Source: Allobosea sp. LC85 (GTDB taxonomy: Bacteria > Pseudomonadota > Alphaproteobacteria > Rhizobiales > Beijerinckiaceae). From it: a DNA stretch of 64,000 bases. Each line of letters begins with the position of its first letter. Position 1 is the first letter of the stretch. The DNA is taken from contig NZ_JPKG01000058.1 of NCBI RefSeq assembly GCF_000735605.1, forward strand, positions 62,001 to 126,000, in the 5' to 3' direction. Below the pieces are notes generated by a model that saw only the letters and a program-made list of their open reading frames with translations, was not told the origin of the DNA and searched no databases. The position numbers were made by a program, and so were the translations under genes. Below are positions 29,665 through 41,124 of the stretch, piece after piece.

Positions 29665-30480
29665 TTATTTCTCTGCCTTGCCCAGCAGTTGCGAGGCGGC
29701 GAGCAGCAGCGAGGTGATCACGATCATGATCGTCGAGATCGCCGCGATGGTCGGGTCGATCTGGTCGCGCAGCGCCATGAACATCGCGCGCGTCAGCGTC
29801 GAGTTGTCGCCGCCGGAGACGAAGAGCGAGACCACGACCTCGTCGAAGGAGGTCAGGAAGGAGAGCAAAGCCGAGGTGACGATGGCGAAGCCGATCTGGG
29901 GCATCGTCACCTGGAGGAAGGCCTGCGCCCGGGTCGCGCCCAGGCTGCGGGCGACGCGCTCCTGGTCGAGATCAAAACTCTTCAGGGCCGAGCCGACGAT
30001 CATCATCACGATCGGCACGGCGAGCATCGTATGCGCGAGCACGATGCCGAGGAAGGAATTGACCATCTTGAGCTGCACGAAGGCATAGAACAGCGCGATG
30101 CCGACGAGGATGACCGGAACGATCGTCGGCGTCAGCAGCGCCAGGATCACGACCCCGCCGAAGCGCAGCCGCGAGACATGCAGCCCATAGGCCGCGAGCG
30201 TGCCGACCGGAGTCGCCACGAGCGCCGTGCAGATGCCGGCCTTGAGCGAGGTCGCGGTGGCCGCCATCCAGCTCGGCGAGGAGAAGAAGGCCTCGTACCA
30301 GCGCAACGACCATTGCCGCGGCGGAAACTCCAGGTACTGCGACTGCGAGAACGACATCGGGATCACGATCAGCGTCGGCAGGGCGAGGAAGGCCAGCACC
30401 AGCACGCCGAGCCCGTAGAGCCAGAGCCGCGACCGGTGCGTGATCTGCGTGTCGCTGGCGGGACGATCGAACCAGCTCAT
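29665..30480 (-). CDS. ABC transporter permease, PotC-like
   Basis: A 271-aa inner-membrane permease of the spermidine/putrescine type with about six transmembrane helices. The EAA-type loop SLGATRAQAFLQVTMPQI near residue 185 contacts the ATPase. Start ATG 30480 lies 2 nt after the stop of the preceding permease; a TTG at 30486 is an alternative. Last gene of a four-gene operon (binding protein, ATPase, permease, permease) in which successive genes overlap or nearly touch. Confidence 0.9.
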   Translation of the reverse strand: MSWFDRPASDTQITHRSRLWLYGLGVLVLAFLALPTLIVIPMSFSQSQYLEFPPRQWSLRWYEAFFSSPSWMAATATSLKAGICTALVATPVGTLAAYGLHVSRLRFGGVVILALLTPTIVPVILVGIALFYAFVQLKMVNSFLGIVLAHTMLAVPIVMMIVGSALKSFDLDQERVARSLGATRAQAFLQVTMPQIGFAIVTSALLSFLTSFDEVVVSLFVSGGDNSTLTRAMFMALRDQIDPTIAAISTIMIVITSLLLAASQLLGKAEK

Positions 30481-30482
30481 GT

Positions 30483-31397
30483 TCAATGCCCCGCGCCGAA
30501 GAGGCCGGCGCCGCGCGAGAGCCGGGCCGCCAGGACGAGCACGACGAGCGTGATCACCAGCAGCACGACACCGAGCGCGCTCGCCGCCCCCCAGTTGAAG
30601 AACAGCTCGATATCGTTGGCGATGCGGTTCGAGACCATCGTCACCTTGCCGCCGCCGAGCATGGCCGGCGTCACGTAGAAGCCGAGGCAGAGCACGAAGA
30701 CGAGCGCGGAGCCGGCGGCGAGGCCGGGCAGCGACAGCGGAAAGAACACGGTCCAGAAGCCATGGGCCGGGGTCGAGCCGAGACTGGAGGCCGCCCGCAG
30801 CAGGTCGCGGTCGATCGCCCGCATCGTGCCGTAGAGCGGCAGGACGAGGAAGGGAAGCATGATATGGACCATGCCGATCAGCGTTCCCGCGACATTATGG
30901 ACGAGCTGCAGCGGCTCGCTCCAGAGGCCGAGCTCGATGCCCCAGGTGTTGATCAGCCCGCGACGCTGCAGCAGCACCAGCCAGGCATAGGTCCGCACCA
31001 GCAGCGAGGTCCAGAACGGCAGCAGCACCGCGATCATGCAGAGATTGGCGGCGCGCCGCGGCAGCTGCGACAGGAAATAGGCGAGCGGATAGCCGAGCAG
31101 GATGCAGATCGCCGTGGTCAGCAGGCTGATCTCGAAGGTGGTGCGGAAGGTGCGGCCATAGGAGGGCTCGGCCAGCATGCGCCGGTAATGCTCCAGGCTC
31201 GGTGCACCGGCATCGTCGAAGAAGGACAGGCCGAACAGCCAGCCGACCGGCAGCAGCACCGTGACGGTGACGAGCAGGAGCGCAGGCGCTGCCAGCGCCG
31301 CCAGCCCGAGTCGCTCGCGCCAATGGTCGCGGCGCAGCGCCGCGGCATGGAAATCGTCGCCGGGGGCGCCGGCGATGCTGAGCCCGGGCGCGCTCAT
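30483..31397 (-). CDS. ABC transporter permease, PotB-like
   Basis: A 304-aa permease with about six transmembrane helices. The first is LAALAAPALLLVTVTVLLP near residue 35, and the EAA loop is SSLGSTPAHGFWTVFFPLSL near 205. Start ATG 31397 follows GGGAGGGAG and overlaps the ATPase stop by 4 nt (ATGA); a longer frame upstream is the ATPase region read in another frame. It forms the pore together with the PotC-like permease. Confidence 0.9.
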   Translation of the reverse strand: MSAPGLSIAGAPGDDFHAAALRRDHWRERLGLAALAAPALLLVTVTVLLPVGWLFGLSFFDDAGAPSLEHYRRMLAEPSYGRTFRTTFEISLLTTAICILLGYPLAYFLSQLPRRAANLCMIAVLLPFWTSLLVRTYAWLVLLQRRGLINTWGIELGLWSEPLQLVHNVAGTLIGMVHIMLPFLVLPLYGTMRAIDRDLLRAASSLGSTPAHGFWTVFFPLSLPGLAAGSALVFVLCLGFYVTPAMLGGGKVTMVSNRIANDIELFFNWGAASALGVVLLVITLVVLVLAARLSRGAGLFGAGH

Positions 31398-32542
31398 GTG
31401 CGCTCCCTCCCCTCGTCGGCCAGCAGCACGGTGTCGCTGACGGCGATGCCGACCGCGATCGGCGTGCCGCGTGCCGGCGGCGCGGAATCGTCGCCCCGCG
31501 TCGCCATGCGCAGGCTGACCAGGCTGCCATCGCCCAGCACGAGCTGCAGCAGCAGCGTGTCGCCCTGGTAGATCGCGCTCTGGACCGTGCCCTCGAAGCG
31601 GTTCATCGCCTCGGCTTCGCCGCCGTCGAGGATGCGCAGCCGTTCCGGGCGCAGCATCATCACGCAATGCCGCTGCCCGGCCGGGATCTTTGGCGCCCGG
31701 ATGACGGAGCCGGCCGCCCGGCAGATGCCATCGGCGACCTCGACTGCGAGGAACGAGGATTCGCCGATGAACTCGGCGACGAAGCGGCTGCCGGGCTGGT
31801 CGTATATCGCGCGCGGGGTGTCGATCCTCGCGATCCGGCCGCGATCGAGCACGGCGATGCGGTCCGACATGGTCAGGGCCTCGCGCTGGTCATGCGTGAC
31901 ATAGACGGTGGTGGTACCGAGGCGGTCATGGAGCTGGCGCAGCTCGATCTGCATGCGCTCGCGCAGCTGCTTGTCGAGTGCCGAGAGCGGCTCGTCCATC
32001 AGGATGATGCGCGGCTCGAAGACGATGGCGCGGGCGAGCGCGACGCGCTGGCGCTGGCCGCCGGAGAGCTGGTTGATGCTGCGCCCGCCATAGCCGCCGA
32101 GCTGGAACATCTCGAGCGCAGCCTCGACGCGGCGGGCGATCTCGTTCGCCGGCACGCGCCTGAGCCTAAGCGGGAACCCGACATTGCGGGCGACATCCAT
32201 ATGCGGAAACAAGGCATAGTTCTGGAAGACCATGCCGATCTCGCGCTTGTGCGGCGCAAGCCGGACGACCTCGCGCTCGCCGAAGCGGATGCTGCCCTGG
32301 TCGGGCCGCAGGAAGCCGGCAATCGCCATCAGCAGGGTCGTCTTGCCCGAACCCGACGGGCCGAGCAGGGTCAGGAACTCGCCCGGCCTGACATCGAGAT
32401 CGACAGCGTCGAGCACGGAGACGGCGCCATAGGCCTTGCTCAGTCGCCGCACCGCGATCGGCAGCGCCTTACCTACGGGTGAGACGAGCGGGGCTGCCGC
32501 TGTGGCAGCCTCCCGCTCGCCGGAATCAGCCACCCGCCTCAT
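31394..32542 (-). CDS. ABC transporter ATP-binding protein, PotA-like
   Basis: A 382-aa ATPase. Walker A is GPSGSGKTT near residue 60, the Q-loop is VFQNYALFPHM, the signature is LSGGQRQRVALARA near 157, Walker B is ILMDEPLSALD near 180 and the switch His is in YVTHDQREA near 214. The C-terminal TOBE domain (about 270-380; MMLRPERLRI) is typical of PotA/CysA-like importers. Start ATG 32542 overlaps the binding-protein stop by 4 nt. Confidence 0.93.
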   Translation of the reverse strand: MRRVADSGEREAATAAAPLVSPVGKALPIAVRRLSKAYGAVSVLDAVDLDVRPGEFLTLLGPSGSGKTTLLMAIAGFLRPDQGSIRFGEREVVRLAPHKREIGMVFQNYALFPHMDVARNVGFPLRLRRVPANEIARRVEAALEMFQLGGYGGRSINQLSGGQRQRVALARAIVFEPRIILMDEPLSALDKQLRERMQIELRQLHDRLGTTTVYVTHDQREALTMSDRIAVLDRGRIARIDTPRAIYDQPGSRFVAEFIGESSFLAVEVADGICRAAGSVIRAPKIPAGQRHCVMMLRPERLRILDGGEAEAMNRFEGTVQSAIYQGDTLLLQLVLGDGSLVSLRMATRGDDSAPPARGTPIAVGIAVSDTVLLADEGRERT

Positions 32543-33594
32543 TCGGTCAGCATATTCTGATAGGCTGCCGAGGCCTGGGCCTCGAACTTGGTGTACCAGT
32601 CGAGGTCGATCGCCACTTGCTTCGCGGCATTGTCGGGATGGGAGGGCAGCGTCCTGGCATAGGCCGCCTCGATCGTGCCGAGGTCATAGGCTTTCTTGTT
32701 GGTCGGCCCGTAGGTGATGTATTTGGTGAATTCCGCCTGGTATTGCGGCTTGCTGATCTCGGCCAGGAACTTCATCGCCAGGTCCTTGTTAGGGGCCCCC
32801 TTGGCGATGGCGAAGCAGTCATAGTCGAGCAGCGCCTGGTTGAAGGTGTAGGCGACCTTCGCACCGTCCTTGGCGGCGACGTCGAAGCGGCCGTTCCAGC
32901 CGGTGATCATGTCGACCTCGCCATCCTTCATCAGCTGGGCGTGCTGGGCGCCGGAGCTCCACCAGACCGCGACATGCGGCTTCAGCTCGCGGATCTTCTT
33001 GATCGCGCGCTCGATGCCGCCGGGCTGCGACAGCACCTCGTAGACCTTCTCCGGCGGCACGCCGTCGGCCATCAGCGCGGGCTCGAGCGCGCCGGCCACG
33101 CCCTTGCGATAGGAGCGCTTGCCCGGGAATGTCTTGACGTCCCAGAAATCGGCCCAGCTCTGCGGGCCGCTCTGGCCATAGGTCTTGGTGTTCCAGGCCA
33201 GCACCGTGGAGAAGACATCGCCGCCGACGCAGTAATCCTGCGCCGTGCCGGGCACGAAGCTCGAGGTGTCGATGACCTTGTAGTCGAGCTTTTCGAGGAT
33301 GCCCTCGGAGCCTGCCCGCGCCGCGCTGCCGGAGCCGCTGGCGACGACATCCCAGGTCACGGCGCCGGCCTTCACCTTGAGGCGCAGGTCGGCGATGCTG
33401 CTATAGGTCTCTTCCCTGAGCTTGATGCCCAGCGCCTTGGCGGCGGGCACGAACAGCGCCTTGCTCTGCGCCTCCTGATAGGAGCCGCCGAAGGACACGA
33501 CAGTGAGCTCCTGCGCCAAGGCGGGCAGCGCGCCGGCCAGGCTCAGGAGAAGGACGAGGGTCGATCGCGACGGCAGGATCGGCGGGCACTGCAT
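32539..33594 (-). CDS. Periplasmic substrate-binding protein, PotD/PotF-like
   Basis: A 351-aa exported binding protein. A signal peptide of about 27 residues (LVLLLSLAGALPALAQ) precedes ELTVVSFGGSYQEAQSKALF, typical of the spermidine/putrescine-binding (SBP_bac_8 or PotD-like) class. The ligand could be a polyamine, an opine, or a related amine; the sequence does not decide. Start ATG 33594 has AGGAGAT upstream. First gene of the transporter operon; a putative MocR operator lies 100 nt before it. Confidence 0.9.
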   Translation of the reverse strand: MQCPPILPSRSTLVLLLSLAGALPALAQELTVVSFGGSYQEAQSKALFVPAAKALGIKLREETYSSIADLRLKVKAGAVTWDVVASGSGSAARAGSEGILEKLDYKVIDTSSFVPGTAQDYCVGGDVFSTVLAWNTKTYGQSGPQSWADFWDVKTFPGKRSYRKGVAGALEPALMADGVPPEKVYEVLSQPGGIERAIKKIRELKPHVAVWWSSGAQHAQLMKDGEVDMITGWNGRFDVAAKDGAKVAYTFNQALLDYDCFAIAKGAPNKDLAMKFLAEISKPQYQAEFTKYITYGPTNKKAYDLGTIEAAYARTLPSHPDNAAKQVAIDLDWYTKFEAQASAAYQNMLTE

Positions 33595-33693: not shown

Positions 33694-33721
33694 AATTGGT
33701 CTGGCCAGAAGGTCCATTCTG
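33694..33721. promoter_or_regulatory. Putative MocR operator, site 1 (transporter operon)
   Basis: AATTGGTCTG (33694-33703), 5 nt, AAGGTCCATTCTG (33709-33721). Both halves and their spacing are repeated exactly at 37754-37781 beside the MocR gene. It lies between the transporter operon and the upstream amine-oxidase gene. Confidence 0.65.
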
Positions 33722-33762
33722 AGAATTGGGGAAGGCCAATCCGCAGGATCGATCCCGCTGGC

Positions 33763-35061
33763 TCATCGGGCGAGGCGATCGCGCCAGCGGTAATAGAAGA
33801 CCGACGGCGCGAGGAACCAGGGATTGCCGCTGTAGAAGGGCCGCGTCGGGAATGGCAGGTCGTCGAGCGCGGTCTTGCCCACGGCCAAGCCGAGCACCTG
33901 CTGGCCGAGCCGCATGCCGAAATAGCTCGCCGTGCCGACGCCCGCCCCGCAATAGCCCATGGCGTAGTAGAGCCCGTCATGGCGGCCGACATGCATCAGC
34001 TCGTCGAAGGTGTAGGCGACGAAGCCGCACCAGGAATGGCTGATCCGCGTCTTCGCCAGTTCGGCGAAGATCGCGCTCATGTCGGCATGGAGCTTCGGCC
34101 CGCTGCGCCGCGGATCGGTCTCGCTCAGCGAGACGCGGCCGCCGAACAGGATGCGGCGCCGGTCGGGCGAGGCGCGGTAGTAATAGACGACCTTGCGGGT
34201 ATCGCTGACGATGCGGTTGCGCGGGATCAGTTTGTCCATCAGCGCCGGCTCCAGCGGCTCGGTCGCGATGATGTAGCTGCCGATCGGGATGACGCGGCGG
34301 CGCAACCAGCCGGTCGCCGGCCCGGTATAGCCGTTTGTGGCGACAACGACGTCGCGCGCGCGGATCGTGCCGCGCGGCGTCTCGACCAGGAAGTCCTTGC
34401 CCTGCCTTGTGATCGCGGTCGCCGGGCAGAACGGCACGAGCGCGGCGCCCGCCGCGATGACGCGCTCCAGCAGACCCTGATGATAGCGCGCCGGGTTGAC
34501 CGAGGCATGGCCGGCATAGACCACGCCGCCATGATAGAGGTCCGAGCCGATCTCGTCGCGCTGCTCGGCCCGTGGCACGACATGGCAGGGCACTTCGAGG
34601 CCCTTGGGCTGGGTGTCGACGCGGCGTGCGAGCATCTCGTACTGGCCCGGTGAATGCGCGGCGTGAAAGCGCCCGACCACGTCGAAATCGCAGTCGATCG
34701 CCTCGTCGCGCACGAACTCGCCGATCCAGCGCAGCGAGCGATGGCCCTCCTGCAGGATCGCGAAGGCCCGTTTCTCGCCGTGACGGCGCGCCAGGGCCTC
34801 GAGGCCGGGCTTGATGCTGGTCGAGATCTGGCCGCCATTGCGGGTGCTGCAGCCGAAGCCGGCCGCCTCCGCATCGAGCACCACCGTGCTGCGCCCGCCC
34901 CTGGCGGTCTGCAGAGCGGCATGCAGGCCGGTATAGCCGGAGCCGACGACCACGACATCGGCCTGTTTCGGCGGCTCCGCGCGGGGCAGTTCCGGCCGCG
35001 GGACCCCGTCCCACCAATAGGGTGCCGCCTTGAAATCGGCGGTAAACAGCTCACTCGACAT
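33763..35061 (-). CDS. FAD-dependent oxidoreductase (DAO family, PuuB-like)
   Basis: A 432-aa flavoprotein. ADVVVVGSGYTGLHAALQTA near residue 34 is the FAD ADP-binding loop, followed by VVLDAEAAGFGCSTRNGGQI, the typical DAO-family sequence ('GFGASGRNGG') after it. The C-terminal CGAGVGTASYFGMRLGQQVL closes the FAD site. PuuB-like members oxidise gamma-glutamylputrescine or N-methylated amines with O2 or an electron carrier. No gamma-glutamylpolyamine synthetase gene is in the window, so the substrate is unsettled. Start ATG 35061. It is in line with the aldehyde dehydrogenase 24 nt upstream. Confidence 0.88.
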   Translation of the reverse strand: MSSELFTADFKAAPYWWDGVPRPELPRAEPPKQADVVVVGSGYTGLHAALQTARGGRSTVVLDAEAAGFGCSTRNGGQISTSIKPGLEALARRHGEKRAFAILQEGHRSLRWIGEFVRDEAIDCDFDVVGRFHAAHSPGQYEMLARRVDTQPKGLEVPCHVVPRAEQRDEIGSDLYHGGVVYAGHASVNPARYHQGLLERVIAAGAALVPFCPATAITRQGKDFLVETPRGTIRARDVVVATNGYTGPATGWLRRRVIPIGSYIIATEPLEPALMDKLIPRNRIVSDTRKVVYYYRASPDRRRILFGGRVSLSETDPRRSGPKLHADMSAIFAELAKTRISHSWCGFVAYTFDELMHVGRHDGLYYAMGYCGAGVGTASYFGMRLGQQVLGLAVGKTALDDLPFPTRPFYSGNPWFLAPSVFYYRWRDRLAR

Positions 35062-35085
35062 TCCGTCGTTTCCCCCCGGGCCCGT

Positions 35086-36579
35086 TCAGAGCCGCGCCAC
35101 AACACTCTTGAGCTTGCAGTAGCTGCGCAAGCCCGCCATGCCCTTGGCCCGGCCAAAGCCGGATTTACGGTTACCGCCGAAGGGCATGGCGATGCCGCCG
35201 GCGAAGAACTCGTTGATGTAGACCTGGCCGGCATCGACCGCGCGCGCGAAGCGCCAGGCCTTGGCATGGTCACGGGTGTAGATGCCGGCGACCAGCGCAT
35301 AGGAGGTCGCGTTGGCGGCCGCGATGACCTCGTCCAGATCGGCGGCGATCTGCACCGTCAGGACCGGGCCAAAAATCTCCTCCTGCACCAGTGGGTCGTC
35401 CGGGCCGCGGGCAAGAATGATGGTCGGACGATAGAACCAGCCGCCGCCGCACTCGCTTGCCGGGACGATGCCGCCACCGATCAGGATGCGGTTTCCGGCC
35501 GCACGCGCCCGCTCGACATGGGCCTCGATGCGCGCGAGCTGCTGCAGCGAATTGATCGGCCCGATGCCGGCCTCGCTGAGGCCGTGGCCGAGTTGCATCG
35601 CTGAAACGCGGGCGACGAGCCAATCGAGAACTTCGCCCGCGATCGGCTCCTCCAGGATCAGCCGCGAGCCGGCCGAGCAGATCTGGCCGGCATTCTCGTA
35701 GATCGCTCCGAGCACGCCCTCGACCGCCGGCCCGATCTCGCAATCGGCCATGAGCGCGACGGGGGATTTGCCGCCGAGTTCGAACGCCAGCCGCGTGACA
35801 TGCTCGGCCGCCGCCCGCATCACGCGTTGGCCCGTCGCGACCGAGCCGGTGAAAGTGATGTGGTCGATGCCGGGATGGGAGACGAGCGCTGCCCCCGCCT
35901 CCGCGCCCGTGCCGGCGACGACATTGAGCACGCCGTCCGGCAGGCCGGCCTCATGCAGCAATTCCGCCAGCATCAGCGTGGTGAAGGGCGTCTGCTCGGC
36001 CGGCTTGACGACGAGCGTGCAACCGGCGGCAAGCGCCGGCGCAATGCCGCGCGCGGCCGTCGAGAGCGGATAGTTCCATGGCACGATCTGCGCGACGACG
36101 CCGATCGGTTCCTCGATCGTCACCCCGAGATAATCCGGGCCGAGCGGCACGCTGTCGCCATGGAGCTTGTCGGCGGCCCCGGCATAATAGGCGAAGGCGC
36201 GGATGACGCCGCCGACATCGCCCTCGGATTCGGCGAGCAGCTTGCCGGAATCGAGCGTCTCGACGACAGCGAACCGCGCCGCCCGCTCGCGCAGCAGATG
36301 GCTCGCGCGCATCAGAATTTCGCCGCGGGCCGCCGGCGTCATCTGCGACCAGGGGCCGGTGAGCGCCGCGCGCGCTGCGGCCACCGCCGCCGCCACATCC
36401 TCGGCAGTCCCCGCCGCGACGCTGGCGAAAGGAACGCCGCGGCCGGGGTCGAAACTCTCCATCTCCCGCCCGGAGACGGAGGCAATGAGCCGGCCGCCGA
36501 TGAAATGCCCGCGCGGCAGGCCAGCCAGGGTGCCGGTGCGTTGCGCTTCCGCGACCAGCCCCGCCTGGTCGAGGGTCAC
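35086..36579 (-). CDS. NAD(P)-dependent aldehyde dehydrogenase
   Basis: A 497-aa aldehyde dehydrogenase. IVPWNYPLS near residue 150, FTGSVATGQRV near 230, catalytic Glu in AFELGGKSP near 255 and nucleophile Cys in ENAGQICSAGSRL near 288; the C-terminus has GGNRKSGFGRAKG. It probably oxidises the aldehyde released by the amine oxidase downstream. Start is GTG 36579, which overlaps the stop of the preceding gene as GTGA; the longer open frame is not used. Confidence 0.93.
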   Translation of the reverse strand: MTLDQAGLVAEAQRTGTLAGLPRGHFIGGRLIASVSGREMESFDPGRGVPFASVAAGTAEDVAAAVAAARAALTGPWSQMTPAARGEILMRASHLLRERAARFAVVETLDSGKLLAESEGDVGGVIRAFAYYAGAADKLHGDSVPLGPDYLGVTIEEPIGVVAQIVPWNYPLSTAARGIAPALAAGCTLVVKPAEQTPFTTLMLAELLHEAGLPDGVLNVVAGTGAEAGAALVSHPGIDHITFTGSVATGQRVMRAAAEHVTRLAFELGGKSPVALMADCEIGPAVEGVLGAIYENAGQICSAGSRLILEEPIAGEVLDWLVARVSAMQLGHGLSEAGIGPINSLQQLARIEAHVERARAAGNRILIGGGIVPASECGGGWFYRPTIILARGPDDPLVQEEIFGPVLTVQIAADLDEVIAAANATSYALVAGIYTRDHAKAWRFARAVDAGQVYINEFFAGGIAMPFGGNRKSGFGRAKGMAGLRSYCKLKSVVARL

Positions 36580-37682
36580 GCCGACACCTCGCTGACGCAA
36601 TACTCGGCCCGGTCCAGCCAGTCGGGCTCGATCTCGACGCCCCAGCCGGGCTCGCAAGGGATCGCGACCATGCCGTCGCGGGCTTTTGGTGGGTTGCGCA
36701 GCAGCCCCTGCTCCCATGGATAATAGTCAGGCCCCTCGATCGAGAACTCGACATAGGGGCCGGCATTGGCGAGCGCGCCCATGACATGCAGGGTGAACAC
36801 CGTCACCAGCGACTGGTTGGCGGAATGGGGCGTCACCGGCAGGCCGGCCTCGGCCGCCCAGCGCGCCACCGTCAGCATGCGCCCGACGCCGCCGATATAG
36901 CAGATATCCGGCTGCACCACGTCGACGACGCGCCCGTCGATCATCGCCCGCCAGATCGCGAGGTCGCAATCCTGCTCGCCACCGGTGACGTCGAGGTCGA
37001 GCGCCTCGCGGACCTCGCGGGTCCAGGCATGTTCCCAATAGGGACAGGGCTCCTCGAAATGGACGATGCCATGGTCCTGCAGCATGCGGCCGACCGCGAT
37101 GGCGCTCGCCGGCGAGTAGCCGCTATTGGCATCGACCAGCAGCGTCGCCTCATCGCCGAGCGCGGCGCGGACCTGCGGCACGATCGCCTCGGTGCGGCCG
37201 GGCCATTCATCGCGGTCGCGGCCGCATTCGCGCCCGACCCGGAACTTGAAGGCGCGGTAGCCATGGGCATCGCGCAGCCGGGCGAGCCGCTCGGCCTCGG
37301 CCTCGGGCGTGATCTCGCCGCGTTTCATGCTGGAGGCGTAGACCGGGAACGGCCGCGGCGTGCCGCCGAGCAATTCGCAGACGCTTTTCCGCTCCTTCCG
37401 GCCGCGCAGGTCCCAGAGCGCCGTGTCGAGCCCGGTCAGGGCCCGGCAAAGATAGGAGCCCGGGAACTTGTGCTCGCGCTCGCCGATCGTCGCGACGAGG
37501 TCGTCGACCGCGAAGGCGTCCCAACCGATCGCCCAACGGGCGACCTGGCGGTGGAAGACGGTCGCGGTGATGTCGGCATTATAGGGCGAGAACTGGCCCC
37601 AGCCCTGGCTGCCATCCTCGCAGGTGGCACGCACGAAGCCGACATCCGGGGTCGTGAAGCTTTCGAGACGGGTGATCTTCAT
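36576..37682 (-). CDS. Mandelate racemase/muconate lactonizing enzyme family protein
   Basis: A 368-aa enolase-superfamily enzyme. Barrel residues: FKFRVG near 145, metal ligands Asp in VDANSGYS near 179, Glu in HFEEPCP near 205 and Glu in TGGEQDCD near 228, then VQPDICYIGG and His in TPHSANQ near 280. These enzymes abstract a proton alpha to a carboxylate and act as racemases, epimerases or acid-sugar dehydratases. With an amine oxidase and ABC importer as partners, an unusual amino-acid or betaine substrate is possible (inference). First gene of the minus-strand catabolic operon; the MocR-type operator lies 72 nt upstream. Confidence 0.88.
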   Translation of the reverse strand: MKITRLESFTTPDVGFVRATCEDGSQGWGQFSPYNADITATVFHRQVARWAIGWDAFAVDDLVATIGEREHKFPGSYLCRALTGLDTALWDLRGRKERKSVCELLGGTPRPFPVYASSMKRGEITPEAEAERLARLRDAHGYRAFKFRVGRECGRDRDEWPGRTEAIVPQVRAALGDEATLLVDANSGYSPASAIAVGRMLQDHGIVHFEEPCPYWEHAWTREVREALDLDVTGGEQDCDLAIWRAMIDGRVVDVVQPDICYIGGVGRMLTVARWAAEAGLPVTPHSANQSLVTVFTLHVMGALANAGPYVEFSIEGPDYYPWEQGLLRNPPKARDGMVAIPCEPGWGVEIEPDWLDRAEYCVSEVSA

Positions 37683-37753
37683 TGCTGCCGCCGCCAATCC
37701 ATCGCCGTGGCCCAGCGCGATTGCGAGGCGGCGTGGGCCCAGAAAGGGACTTG

Positions 37754-37781
37754 AATTGGTCTGAACCCAAGGTCCATTCTG
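37754..37781. promoter_or_regulatory. Putative MocR operator, site 2 (divergent promoter)
   Basis: AATTGGTCTG (37754-37763), 5 nt, AAGGTCCATTCTG (37769-37781), identical in both conserved blocks and spacing to site 1. It lies between the enolase-superfamily gene and the divergent MocR gene and could control both. Confidence 0.7.
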
Positions 37782-37849
37782 GCGAAAGCAGCAGTCCAAT
37801 CGCAGAGATCGGGACCAGCGCTGGCTTGGGCAAGAGCACTGGGAGCGAC

Positions 37850-39334
37850 ATGGTCAAACGCGAGGAAGGCGTCCTGCTGCAATCGATCGTGCTGGATCGA
37901 GAGGGGCCGCATGGGCTCAGCGTCCAGGTCTGCGTGGGCTTGCGCGAACTCATCCTGAGCGGCGCGCTCAAGGTCGGCGAGCGCCTGCCGGCGACACGGA
38001 CGCTGGCGCAGGAGTTCGGCGTGGCCCGCACCACCATCGTCGAGAGCTTCGAGCGGCTCGCCGCCGAGGGGCTGGTCGAGACCCGCGTCGGCGCCGGCAC
38101 CTATGTCAGTCAGGCGCTGGCGAGCGAGCGGCCGGCGCCCGTGACTGCGGCTGTGGCCGTGCCGACCGCAAAACTCCGGCTGGCGCAGGCGATGGACTCC
38201 GCCTCGAAGCTGTTCGGCACACGCCTGCCGCACCAGCCGCGCGCCTTCACCACGGCGATGCCCGCTTTTGACGCCTTCCCGATGGCGCAATGGGCCAAAC
38301 TCTCCGGCCGGCACTGGCGCAAGGCGCGCCAACAGGTCCTCGGCTATCCCGATCCCCATGGCGAGGCCGTGCTACGCCAGGCGATCGCGGCCCATCTGCG
38401 GCTCAACCGCGGCATCGCCTGCGAATGGCAGCAGATCTTCATCGTCGCGGGCGCCCAGCAGGCCTTCCAGCTCCTCGCGGCGACGCTGATCAATCCGGGC
38501 GACAAGGTCTGGTTCGAGAACCCGGGCGCGATCGGGGCCCGCAACAGCCTGATCCTGTCGGGCGCCGATATCGTGCCGGTTCCGGTCGACGAGGCCGGCC
38601 TGATCGTCGAGGCGGGCCTGCGCCGTGCGCCGGATTTCAAGCTCGCCTTCGTCACGCCCTCGCACCAGCAGCCGCTCGGCGCCAAGATGAGCCTGGAACG
38701 GCGCCTGGCCCTGCTGGAGGCGGCGCAGGCGAGTTCCGCCTGGATCATCGAGGATGACTGGGACGGCGAATTCTGCTTCCAGGGCGCGCCGATGGCGACG
38801 CTGACCAGCATCGACCTGACCGGCCGCGTGATCTATGTTGGCACCTTCTCGAAGACGCTGTTTCCCTCGCTGCGGCTCGGCTTCCTCGTCGCCCCGCCCC
38901 AGCTCGCCGAGCAGATCGGAATCTGCCTCGACGCCTTTTCGCCGGGCGTACCGACGGCGCTGCAGGGCATCGTCGCCGATTTCATCGTCGAGGGGCATTT
39001 CGCCACCCATGTCCGGCGCATGCGCAAGCTCTACCAGGAGCGTCATCAGGCGCTGATCGCGGCGGCGGACGCGCATCTGGCGGGCGACCTCACCGTGATC
39101 TCGACCCATACCGGCATGCATACGATCGGCTTCCTGCGCGAGGGGTTGGACGCCGTCGCGGTGACGCAGGCCGCCGCCCGGCGCGGCATCACGGTGGCGC
39201 CGATCAGCCGCTTCAGCCTGGAGCCGGTCGAGCGCGACGGGCTCGTGCTCGGCTTCAGCGGCTTCACCCCGGCGCAGATCCAGGCAGGCGTGCTTGGCTT
39301 GCGCCAGGCGATCGACGATCTCGCCCCGGCCTGA
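37850..39334 (+). CDS. MocR-family transcriptional regulator (GntR HTH + aminotransferase domain)
   Basis: A 494-aa regulator. Residues 20-95 form a winged GntR helix-turn-helix (VCVGLRELILSGALKVGERL then LPATRTLAQEFGVARTTIVE), and residues 120-490 form a PLP aminotransferase-like fold. The conserved cofactor Lys lies in YVGTFSKTLFPSLRLGFL near 338, preceded by WIIEDDWDGEF (Asp). MocR proteins sense amino-acid-like ligands through PLP. It is divergent from the catabolic operon, with a shared operator in between, so it is the probable regulator of the whole locus. Start ATG 37850 has GGGAG upstream. Confidence 0.92.
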   Translation: MVKREEGVLLQSIVLDREGPHGLSVQVCVGLRELILSGALKVGERLPATRTLAQEFGVARTTIVESFERLAAEGLVETRVGAGTYVSQALASERPAPVTAAVAVPTAKLRLAQAMDSASKLFGTRLPHQPRAFTTAMPAFDAFPMAQWAKLSGRHWRKARQQVLGYPDPHGEAVLRQAIAAHLRLNRGIACEWQQIFIVAGAQQAFQLLAATLINPGDKVWFENPGAIGARNSLILSGADIVPVPVDEAGLIVEAGLRRAPDFKLAFVTPSHQQPLGAKMSLERRLALLEAAQASSAWIIEDDWDGEFCFQGAPMATLTSIDLTGRVIYVGTFSKTLFPSLRLGFLVAPPQLAEQIGICLDAFSPGVPTALQGIVADFIVEGHFATHVRRMRKLYQERHQALIAAADAHLAGDLTVISTHTGMHTIGFLREGLDAVAVTQAAARRGITVAPISRFSLEPVERDGLVLGFSGFTPAQIQAGVLGLRQAIDDLAPA

Positions 39335-39357
39335 TCCCAACTTGATCCCTTCTTGCG

Positions 39358-39390
39358 GATTGGACTGGCGCTTCGAACAGAATGGTCCTT
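39358..39390. promoter_or_regulatory. Putative MocR operator, site 3 (GMC oxidoreductase)
   Basis: On the reverse strand AAGGACCATTCTG (39390-39378), 12 of 13 bases identical to the second block of sites 1 and 2. GATTGGACTG (39358-39367) on the forward strand resembles the first block at 8 of 10. Spacing and relative orientation differ from sites 1-2. Confidence 0.5.
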
Positions 39391-39410
39391 AGCGACAAGC
39401 CCAATTCACC

Positions 39411-39469
39411 CTAAAGCATCGGCCGGAAAAGTGGATGGCGGTTTTCGGAGAAAACCGATGCAAACACAT
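39411..39469 (-). repeat. Family A intergenic repeat, copy 9 (second hairpin, inverted)
   Basis: Reverse-oriented half copy, starting TAAAGCATCGGCCGGAAAAG and ending AAACCGATGCAAACACA. It lies between the MocR gene and the GMC oxidoreductase, 45 nt before the latter's start. Confidence 0.85.
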
Positions 39470-39513: not shown

Positions 39514-41124
39514 TTGGAGGAATGGGATGTCATCGTCATCGGCGCGGGCTCGGCCGGCTGCGCGCTGGCCGGGCGGCTCGCACTGGCCGGGCGCGGCCGC
39601 ATCCTCGTGCTCGAAGCCGGGCCGCGCGACCTGAGCCCCTGGCTGCATCTGCCGATCGGCTACGGCAAAACCTTCTACCACCCGCGCCTGAACTGGATGT
39701 ACCGGACGGAAAGCCAGCCGGGCCTCGCCGGCCGCCAGATCTACCAGCCGCGCGGCAAGGTCGTGGGCGGGTCGAGCGCGATCAACGCGATGGTCTATAT
39801 GCGCGGCCAGCGTGAGGATTTCGACGGCTGGGAGGCGATGGGCAATCCCGGCTGGGGCTGGCGCGAAGTGCTCGCCGCCTATCGCCGCATGGAGGATCAT
39901 GCGCTCGGCGCGTCAGTCTGGCATGGCGCGGGCGGCCCCGTGCATGTCGAGGACATCGCCTCGGTCGTCCATCCCCTCACCCCGATCTTCGTCAAGGCGG
40001 CAGGGGAAGCCGGCCTGCCCTTCAACCCCGATCTCAACGGCGAAAGCTGCGAGGGCTCCGGCTTCTACCAGATCACGACGCGCGGCGGCCTGCGTGAATC
40101 GGCAGCGCGCGCCTATCTGCATCCCGCCCGCAAGAGCGGGCGCGTCAAGGTCGAGACCGGCGTGCTGGCCTCGCGCATCCTGTTCGAGGGACGCCGCGCC
40201 GTCTGCGTCGAAGGCCGGCGCGACGGCCAGCCGGTCGGCTTCCGCACGGCGGGTGAGATCGTCGTCGCGGCGGGCGCGATCAATTCCCCCCAGCTGCTGC
40301 AGCTCTCCGGCATCGGCGCGCCCGCGCTTCTCGCGCAGCACGGCATCACCGCCTTGCACGCCTTGCCGGCGGTCGGCGCCCATCTCCAGGACCATCTCTG
40401 CTACGACCATGTCTACCGGTCCAGGCAGCCCAGCCTGAACGAGGCGCTGCTCTCCTGGCCCGGCCGCATCGGCATGGCGCTGCAATACGCGCTTCACCGC
40501 AGCGGCCCGCTCGCGCTCAGCGTCAACCAGGGCGGCGGCTTCTTCAAGACGCGGCCGGGGCTCGAGCGCCCGGACATGCAGCTCTATTTCTCGCCGCTGA
40601 GCTATGAGCGCGCCCTGCCCGGCGTGCGCGCGCTGATGAAGCCCGATCCGTTCTCCGGCTTCAGCACCAGTGTCTCGCCCTGCCGGCCGCGCAGCCGCGG
40701 GCATGTCGCGATCCGCTCGCCCGATCCCCAAGTCGCCCCGGTGATCGAACCGAACTACCTCTCCGATCCAGAGGATATCCGCGACATCCTCGCCGGGGCA
40801 CGGTTCCTGCGCCGCCTGGCATCGGCCCCGAGCTTTGCCGCCCTGATCGAGAGCGAGATCCGCCCGGGGCGGGATTGCGCCGATGACGAGGCGCAGCTCG
40901 ATGCCATCCGGCAGCAGGCCTATTCGGTCTTCCACCCCTGCGGCACCTGCCGGATGGGGCCCGACCCTGCGGATTCAGTGGTCGATGCGAGCCTCAGGGT
41001 GCATGGCCTCGGCGGCCTGCGCATCGCCGATGCGTCGATCTTTCCGACGATCCCCTCGGGCAACACCAACGCCCCAGCGATGATGGTCGGCGAACGTGCC
41101 GCCGAACTCATGCTCGCGGAGTGA
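39514..41124 (+). CDS. GMC-family FAD oxidoreductase (choline dehydrogenase-like)
   Basis: A 536-aa GMC oxidoreductase. WDVIVIGAGSAGCALAGRLA at the N-terminus is the FAD loop; GKVVGGSSAINAMVYMRGQ near 84 is GMC signature 1; GAINSPQLLQLSGIG near 257 is signature 2. The catalytic His lies in VFHPCGTCRMG near 475, with SGNTNAPAMMVGERAA at the end. It oxidises an alcohol to an aldehyde, perhaps feeding the aldehyde dehydrogenase of the neighbouring operon. Start is TTG 39514 with GGGAG upstream; the conserved FAD motif begins at residue 4. A third, weaker operator-like sequence lies upstream, linking it to the MocR locus. Confidence 0.9.
   Translation: MEEWDVIVIGAGSAGCALAGRLALAGRGRILVLEAGPRDLSPWLHLPIGYGKTFYHPRLNWMYRTESQPGLAGRQIYQPRGKVVGGSSAINAMVYMRGQREDFDGWEAMGNPGWGWREVLAAYRRMEDHALGASVWHGAGGPVHVEDIASVVHPLTPIFVKAAGEAGLPFNPDLNGESCEGSGFYQITTRGGLRESAARAYLHPARKSGRVKVETGVLASRILFEGRRAVCVEGRRDGQPVGFRTAGEIVVAAGAINSPQLLQLSGIGAPALLAQHGITALHALPAVGAHLQDHLCYDHVYRSRQPSLNEALLSWPGRIGMALQYALHRSGPLALSVNQGGGFFKTRPGLERPDMQLYFSPLSYERALPGVRALMKPDPFSGFSTSVSPCRPRSRGHVAIRSPDPQVAPVIEPNYLSDPEDIRDILAGARFLRRLASAPSFAALIESEIRPGRDCADDEAQLDAIRQQAYSVFHPCGTCRMGPDPADSVVDASLRVHGLGGLRIADASIFPTIPSGNTNAPAMMVGERAAELMLAE

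Follow-up and report, generated by a model that had tools for sequence, protein, structure and literature searches.

A predicted three-box operator connecting a MocR-family regulator with three catabolic and transport units in Allobosea sp. LC85

Here we describe a DNA element present in three copies in a 64,000-nucleotide stretch of Allobosea sp. LC85 (NCBI RefSeq assembly GCF_000735605.1, contig NZ_JPKG01000058.1, positions 62,001 to 126,000 of the forward strand; hereafter the window, in whose numbering all positions are given). We consider it likely, from sequence comparison, that this element serves as operator for the MocR-family regulator whose gene lies at 37850-39334, and that this regulator would activate three catabolic and transport units and probably repress its own gene, mocR. 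These units are an operon for an ATP-binding cassette (ABC) transporter with its extracellular solute-binding protein (SBP); an operon for an enolase-superfamily enzyme (ENO), an aldehyde dehydrogenase (ALDH) and an oxidase of the DAO family (DAO), from which mocR diverges; and the gene for a GMC oxidoreductase. The control circuit is well supported, and ordinary in kind. The three sites are as follows:

33694-33740, plus strand: site A, with box 1 at 33694-33703, box 2 at 33709-33721 and box 3 at 33734-33740
37754-37800, plus strand: site B, with box 1 at 37754-37763, box 2 at 37769-37781 and box 3 at 37794-37800
39359-39406, minus strand: site C, with box 1 at 39397-39406, box 2 at 39378-39390 and box 3 at 39359-39365 (plus-strand ATTGGAC)

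Each site consists of AATTGGnCTn, AAGGnCCATTCTG and, 12 bases further, GnCCAAT, this third box being GGCCAAT at A and GTCCAAT at B and, on its own strand, at C. Read from the opposite strand, A, B and C present a direct pair, ATTGGNC-N15-AATGGNCC, and then GNCCAAT in inverted orientation; this pair occurs without mismatch at all three, and at one more place with 2 mismatches. The sites thereby show the composition of MocR operators, in which a box recurs two to four times in direct and/or inverted orientation, mostly around a TGT or TGG core. A first-pass annotation of this DNA had reported a two-block operator, AATTGGTCTG-N5-AAGGTCCATTCTG, identical at 33694-33721 and 37754-37781. The two copies are indeed identical (0 mismatches over the 23 specified bases); with up to 3 mismatches allowed, the window contains these 2 matches, and 0 of 100 window shuffles reached 2. 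Both blocks are therefore real, but the third box, GnCCAAT, and the polarity of the sites had been overlooked. A third copy had been placed at 39358-39390 with the second block alone kept, on the other strand; that block is found on the minus strand at 39378-39390 with 1 mismatch (12 of 13 bases), whereas the extent has to be corrected to 39359-39406, since box 1 is also present there (AATTGGGCTT, 8 of 10 bases, with a spacer of 6 instead of the 5 at A and B). By itself block 2 is not significant at up to 3 mismatches, with 16 matches in the window, a number equalled by 6 of 100 shuffles.

The target units are those that had been named in the first pass. Site A lies 99 bp upstream of the SBP start codon (33594), in the 168-bp gap between DAO and SBP, both on the minus strand; site B lies between the divergent ENO (start 37682) and mocR (start 37850); and site C, between mocR and GMC, has the listed GMC start 107 bp downstream. 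When the whole 6.56 Mb genome was scanned for further sites with a slightly relaxed two-block pattern, again at up to 3 mismatches, A, B and C alone were found, with 0 matches in the reversed control. At up to 1 mismatch the core pattern alone matches at seven additional genomic positions (reversed control: 1); we do not count them as sites because the full site model lists none of them. That the boxes are pieces of a dispersed repeat or mobile element, to which we give next to no credence, might be suggested by the many intergenic repeats of this genome, one of which, belonging to another family, adjoins site C; copy number and placement speak against it, there being only three copies, each upstream of genes of one cluster, and the sites are conserved in distant genomes where their flanks are not.

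The repeat beside site C is a separate matter. It has the form AAAAGTGG-N4-CGGTTTTC, lies at 39427-39453 on the plus strand and recurs at 12 other places in the window (1501, 15934, 17363 and 22834, for example), so that there are 13 matches at up to 2 mismatches, against 0 in 100 shuffles; a shorter core has 322 matches in the genome at up to 1 mismatch and 0 in the reversed control. In the mocR/GMC gap it belongs to a stretch found in the window and in the two loci with the closest MocRs (L034 and L035), the other aligned sequences being without it, and it was therefore probably inserted there.

Within the genus, represented by 67 genomes including that of the window, an ortholog of the MocR protein at 83% identity or more is encoded in 21, the window's own among them. 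A pattern search matches in 21 of the 67 genomes, twice in each (sites A and B; control 0), and these are exactly the 21 that hold the ortholog. A site model built from sequence only recovers three matches per genome in the same 21, 63 in all (E ≤2.7e-6), the next-best match being partial (E 0.044). Among the 46 genomes without the regulator, 27 have partial matches only (E 0.047 to 1) and 19 none by this model, in a search whose stricter filters at that size lose some weak matches. The three-box form is seen in 62 aligned sites (20 for A, 21 for B and 21 for C), and the frequency of the major base, with gaps counted against a column, is 0.96, 0.95 and 0.91 in the box columns of A, B and C against 0.65, 0.57 and 0.37 in the flanks. 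In 21 of 21 aligned sequences a site occupies the gap between the regulator and its divergent target. Footprinting of orthologous loci, the check by which the two blocks could have fallen, thus found them conserved in 20, 21 and 21 aligned genus sequences, and in 48 of 49 gaps of distant loci.

These distant loci come from a scan of named genomes that kept 80 loci, 66 of them at 66% identity or less, and all 80 were scored with a weight matrix that covers the three boxes and derives from the genus sites. ENO diverges from mocR within 3 kb in 49 of the 66, and a site lies in the gap in 48 of these; where the gap is about 1 kb (L129 and L131), it stands near ENO. At least one further site accompanies 37 of the 49. 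The remaining 17 loci comprise 15 with MocRs at 39-45% identity that lack this gene set and two (L122 and L152) that are moved or cut off. In a quick tree (79 rows) the MocR of the window groups with the enolase-linked rows in one branch of 64 rows (Shimodaira-Hasegawa-like approximate likelihood ratio test, SH-aLRT, 100); the tree leaves out two short rows (L149 and L157), and long branches elsewhere make its outer joins unsure. The clade is spread over the Alphaproteobacteria (Bosea, Pseudolabrys, Roseibium, Stappia, Oceanicola, Stella and Azospirillum among them) and some metagenome-assembled genomes of Burkholderiales.

Conservation of the whole gene block in the genus means that linkage alone could produce the co-occurrence of mocR and site there, and one might suppose that a different DNA-binding regulator reads the sites, mocR being a passenger of the cluster. 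The row of genes from the two permeases through the transporter ATPase, SBP, DAO, ALDH and ENO to mocR and GMC is in fact intact in 19 of 20 relatives, the twentieth (L049) being a short contig. We hold this explanation to be improbable, on three grounds: (i) no second regulator was found among the nine genes of the conserved block; (ii) the half-sites are of the TGGAC kind described for the MocR proteins TauR (PMC5320631) and YczR (PMC4944035); and (iii) enolase clusters in genomes without this MocR are also without the site. The last point comes from a class-wide sample of 385 genomes, in which an ENO homolog at E ≤1e-100 is present in 27 besides the window's own, at 29 loci. A site precedes ENO at 9 of the 9 loci with MocR as divergent neighbour, and at 1 of the 20 where MocR is not adjacent (L214, in genome G325). 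G325 encodes a MocR at 57% identity on another contig, and the two contigs share a terminal overlap of 443 bases (95.7% identity); the regulator therefore probably lies some kilobases off in the same cluster. A first reading of G325 as a site with an unlinked regulator was dropped given this overlap, and what we retain is that the regulator is not the neighbour of ENO there. Counted per genome, the site stands before ENO in all 10 genomes possessing this MocR and in none of the 17 lacking it; genome G408 also has a second ENO locus (L213) that lacks the site. Such a split would arise by chance once in C(27,10), about 1.2e-7, if the genomes were independent, which they are not. Both in the genus and in the class-wide sample the site is thus present only where this MocR is encoded, and the proposal of a shared operator tied to the MocR gene holds.

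It could also be argued that the blocks are core promoter or RNA leader elements common to the three units. The sequence CTTGAA directly before box 1 at site B might be a -35 element of mocR, and the sigma-70 scan reported below places no promoter. Yet the element is absent before ENO in the 17 genomes that lack this MocR, and scattered boxes at whole-turn spacing resemble a protein site, so that we regard this explanation as very improbable.

Returning to an operator read by MocR, the way in which it would act is suggested by the orientation of the sites. At A and C, and at B with respect to ENO, it is the inverted box (box 1) that lies closest to the target. We counted polarity over recognised gene starts other than mocR within 250 bp of a site, with targets not chosen by direction: among 137 sites in the 80 loci, 108 lie near such a start, and 107 of them have box 1 towards it (45 of 46 when the ENO cases are set aside). 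In two loci (L153 and L155) the GMC gene is inverted, and the site, 69-70 bp upstream, is inverted along with it. The other 29 sites, without a recognised start nearby, are mostly those of Roseibium, Stappia and their kin, minus-oriented after mocR, where the first recognised gene is a plus-strand ABC ATPase 1.3-1.7 kb on. In the loci L127-L154, which include Roseibium, Stappia, Labrenzia and their kin, many sites some 1512-1662 bases past the mocR start come close to being long palindromes (ATTGGACTG ... CAGTCCAAT) and have a middle box that is degenerate (ATATATCCATT); in this they differ from the Bosea sites.

A single polarity towards the targets suits activation. The main competitor, which we rate as possible but unlikely, is that MocR binds the sites and only represses all three units, the effector lifting repression, as with EnuR, a repressor of the MocR family for which operators overlapping the core promoter have been predicted (PMC8739950). 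The distance from box 1 to the start codons is 71-107 bp, so that overlap with promoters is conceivable. However, one polarity at 107 of 108 assignable sites is needed by an activator and not by a simple repressor, and the layout of the sites is unlike the EnuR palindrome quoted in that paper. For mocR itself, in 25 of 48 loci the distance between the start of box 2 at site B and that of the mocR match is 40-48 bases, which brings the end of box 3 near the mocR start codon; this position, with GabR as model, makes autorepression likely.

We therefore favour an activator with a predicted mode of action in which (i) a MocR dimer would read the direct boxes ATTGGnC and AATGGnCC, with 22 bp, or about two helix turns, from one start to the next, and/or the inverted GnCCAAT; (ii) it would sit in one polarity upstream of each catabolic promoter, with the inverted box nearest the regulated gene; (iii) an amine effector would react with the pyridoxal phosphate (PLP) of MocR, leading to activation of the ENO/ALDH/DAO operon, the operon for the ABC transporter and the GMC gene; and (iv) since the boxes of site B stand close before mocR, the regulator would probably repress itself in the manner of GabR. 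We infer that MocR binds the sites, activates these units, represses its own gene and responds to an amine, and that the pathway handles a substrate with an amine group, perhaps resembling a polyol or an opine.

Several observations weigh against this account. Site C is weaker than A and B, its box 1 being displaced by one base. The matrix cut-off of 19.5 equals the best score on 160 reversed strands and was chosen after that control had been seen. One locus with ENO adjoining mocR (L117) has no gap site above the cut-off, 12 of the 49 distant ENO-linked loci (L107-L109 among them) are without a further site, and one of the 17 loci outside the ENO-linked set (L156), whose MocR is at 42% identity and whose neighbours are different, has a site above it (22.5). 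As for polarity, one site in L131 faces the wrong way, and L147 and L157 score slightly higher in the opposite orientation at a near-palindromic site. The sigma-70 scan found 0 promoters against 0.6 expected, and the promoter positions are for this reason ones that we infer. Lastly, the counts are not independent, because many loci are close kin and the class-wide positives overlap the 80-locus set: 4 of the 9 adjacent loci (L112, L113, L114 and L123) and the G325 regulator (L122) were already in it.

The genes around the sites, with families assigned by Pfam and NCBIfam, are the following:

29665-30486, minus strand: ABC transporter permease, PotC-like
30483-31391, minus strand: ABC transporter permease, PotB-like, start approximate
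31394-32542, minus strand: ABC transporter ATP-binding protein, above the cut-off of the potA model
32539-33594, minus strand: SBP, extracellular solute-binding protein, nearest solved sequences 5l9g (named MotA) and 4i1d
33763-35061, minus strand: DAO, 432-aa FAD (flavin adenine dinucleotide)-dependent oxidoreductase of the DAO (amine/amino-acid oxidase) family
35086-36579, minus strand: ALDH, 497-aa aldehyde dehydrogenase, its start overlapping the ENO stop (36576-36579)
36576-37682, minus strand: ENO, 368-aa enolase-superfamily enzyme of the mandelate racemase/muconate lactonizing type
37850-39334, plus strand: 494-aa MocR-family regulator, with a GntR winged helix-turn-helix at residues 26-86, an aminotransferase class I/II domain at 150-457 and the PLP lysine K335
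39514-41124, plus strand: 536-aa GMC oxidoreductase, start codon uncertain (TTG listed)

The ENO protein has four solved relatives (3tcs, 3u4f, 3t9p and 3t8q) at E ≤1.1e-146, which carry generic names only.

The regulator has the architecture of its family: the N-terminal GntR domain matches PF00392 with 63.7 bits, the C-terminal fold type I aminotransferase-like domain matches PF00155 with 88.9 bits, and the GabR structure 4n0b matches residues 14-488 (E 2.3e-48). The PLP lysine K335 (GabR K312) is lysine in 64 of 64 clade rows and in 14 of 15 other rows, and two further residues identified from the GabR alignment, D303 and R342, are likewise invariant across the 64 clade rows. At the positions of the GabR effector pocket, R454, the equivalent of GabR Arg430, is kept in 63 of 64 rows; the equivalent of Arg207 is Gly229 in 64 of 64, and that of Tyr205 is Ala in 60 of 64. 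The ENO-linked clade thus appears to have an effector pocket of its own. From the loss of Arg207 with Arg430 kept, the effector is probably not γ-aminobutyrate (GABA); it would probably be another amine, perhaps with one carboxylate. MotA, the name of one of the structures near SBP, we take to be an opine importer protein, and our guess, held with low confidence, is that the oxidase, ALDH, GMC and ENO set, together with an SBP near MotA, handles an opine-like or amino-polyol substrate.

As regards the name of the protein, it passes the PdxR model NF052282 (388.6 against a cut-off of 320 bits), so that an NCBI rule could call it PdxR, though the rhizopine MocR model (NF052281) scores higher and is in fact its top-scoring NCBIfam model (459.4 bits, below the cut-off of 650). 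The genes for PLP synthesis or salvage that go with PdxR are absent from the nine-gene block, the one region checked, which consists of transporter and catabolic genes, and the site model finds these three sites only. The GabR model NF052285 is not reached (249.3 against 600 bits). We adopt neither PdxR nor rhizopine MocR as its name.

What these results may add is an undescribed regulog. With slightly more doubt than belief, we propose that one MocR clade senses an amine intermediate other than GABA, taurine or ectoine and, acting at a polar operator of three boxes, activates an uncharacterised pathway of ENO, GMC, ALDH, FAD-dependent oxidase and an importer whose SBP is nearest MotA. This would tie the transporter, the GMC oxidoreductase and the enolase-superfamily enzyme into one pathway, and would give a MocR clade to which no function is attached a reliable operator of known polarity, with which substrate, effector and mode could be tested using one reporter. 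The literature search found no paper joining Bosea with MocR, and none joining at least four of MocR, mandelate racemase, aldehyde dehydrogenase, FAD-dependent oxidoreductase and ABC transporter. The terms COG4948, mandelate, enolase, choline dehydrogenase, COG2303 and spermidine are absent from the main text of Suvorova and Rodionov (PMC5320631); its supplementary tables list 86 groups, and this regulog may be among them. An earlier description of the motif may thus exist, there or, for instance, in RegPrecise.

In their layout the sites conform to what is known of the family. Two direct boxes and one inverted box, with TGT/TGG cores and a helix-turn spacing that varies slightly, are the commonest MocR motif according to the main text of PMC5320631, and the sites described here are alike in box number, orientation, slightly variable whole-turn spacing and TGG core. 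Four characterised systems come close in different respects. (i) The gammaproteobacterial YczR motif, as given in PMC4944035 (GTCCACT, an inverted ACTGGAC, a 12 bp spacing and a direct GTCCATT), has nearly the half-site and layout found here; YczR, however, controls genes for the YczE membrane protein, and the window protein scores 177.7 bits against the YczR cut-off of 487.4. (ii) The rhizopine MocR binds moc-boxes, paired 11-bp direct repeats, whose sequence AAAGYGGYTCT differs from ATTGGAC and which serve another pathway (PMC10107442). (iii) TauR of Rhodobacter capsulatus is a transcriptional activator acting at direct repeats CTGGACYTAA, in the account given in PMC5320631; its TGGACCT core is box 2 read on the other strand, while its two direct repeats and its taurine genes set it apart. 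(iv) GabR of Bacillus subtilis, as described in PMC6917764, activates gabTD and represses its own gene; its GABA-carboxylate residue Arg207 is Gly in the clade described here, whereas the MocR fold and the PLP lysine are shared, and its mode of action is the one that we propose.

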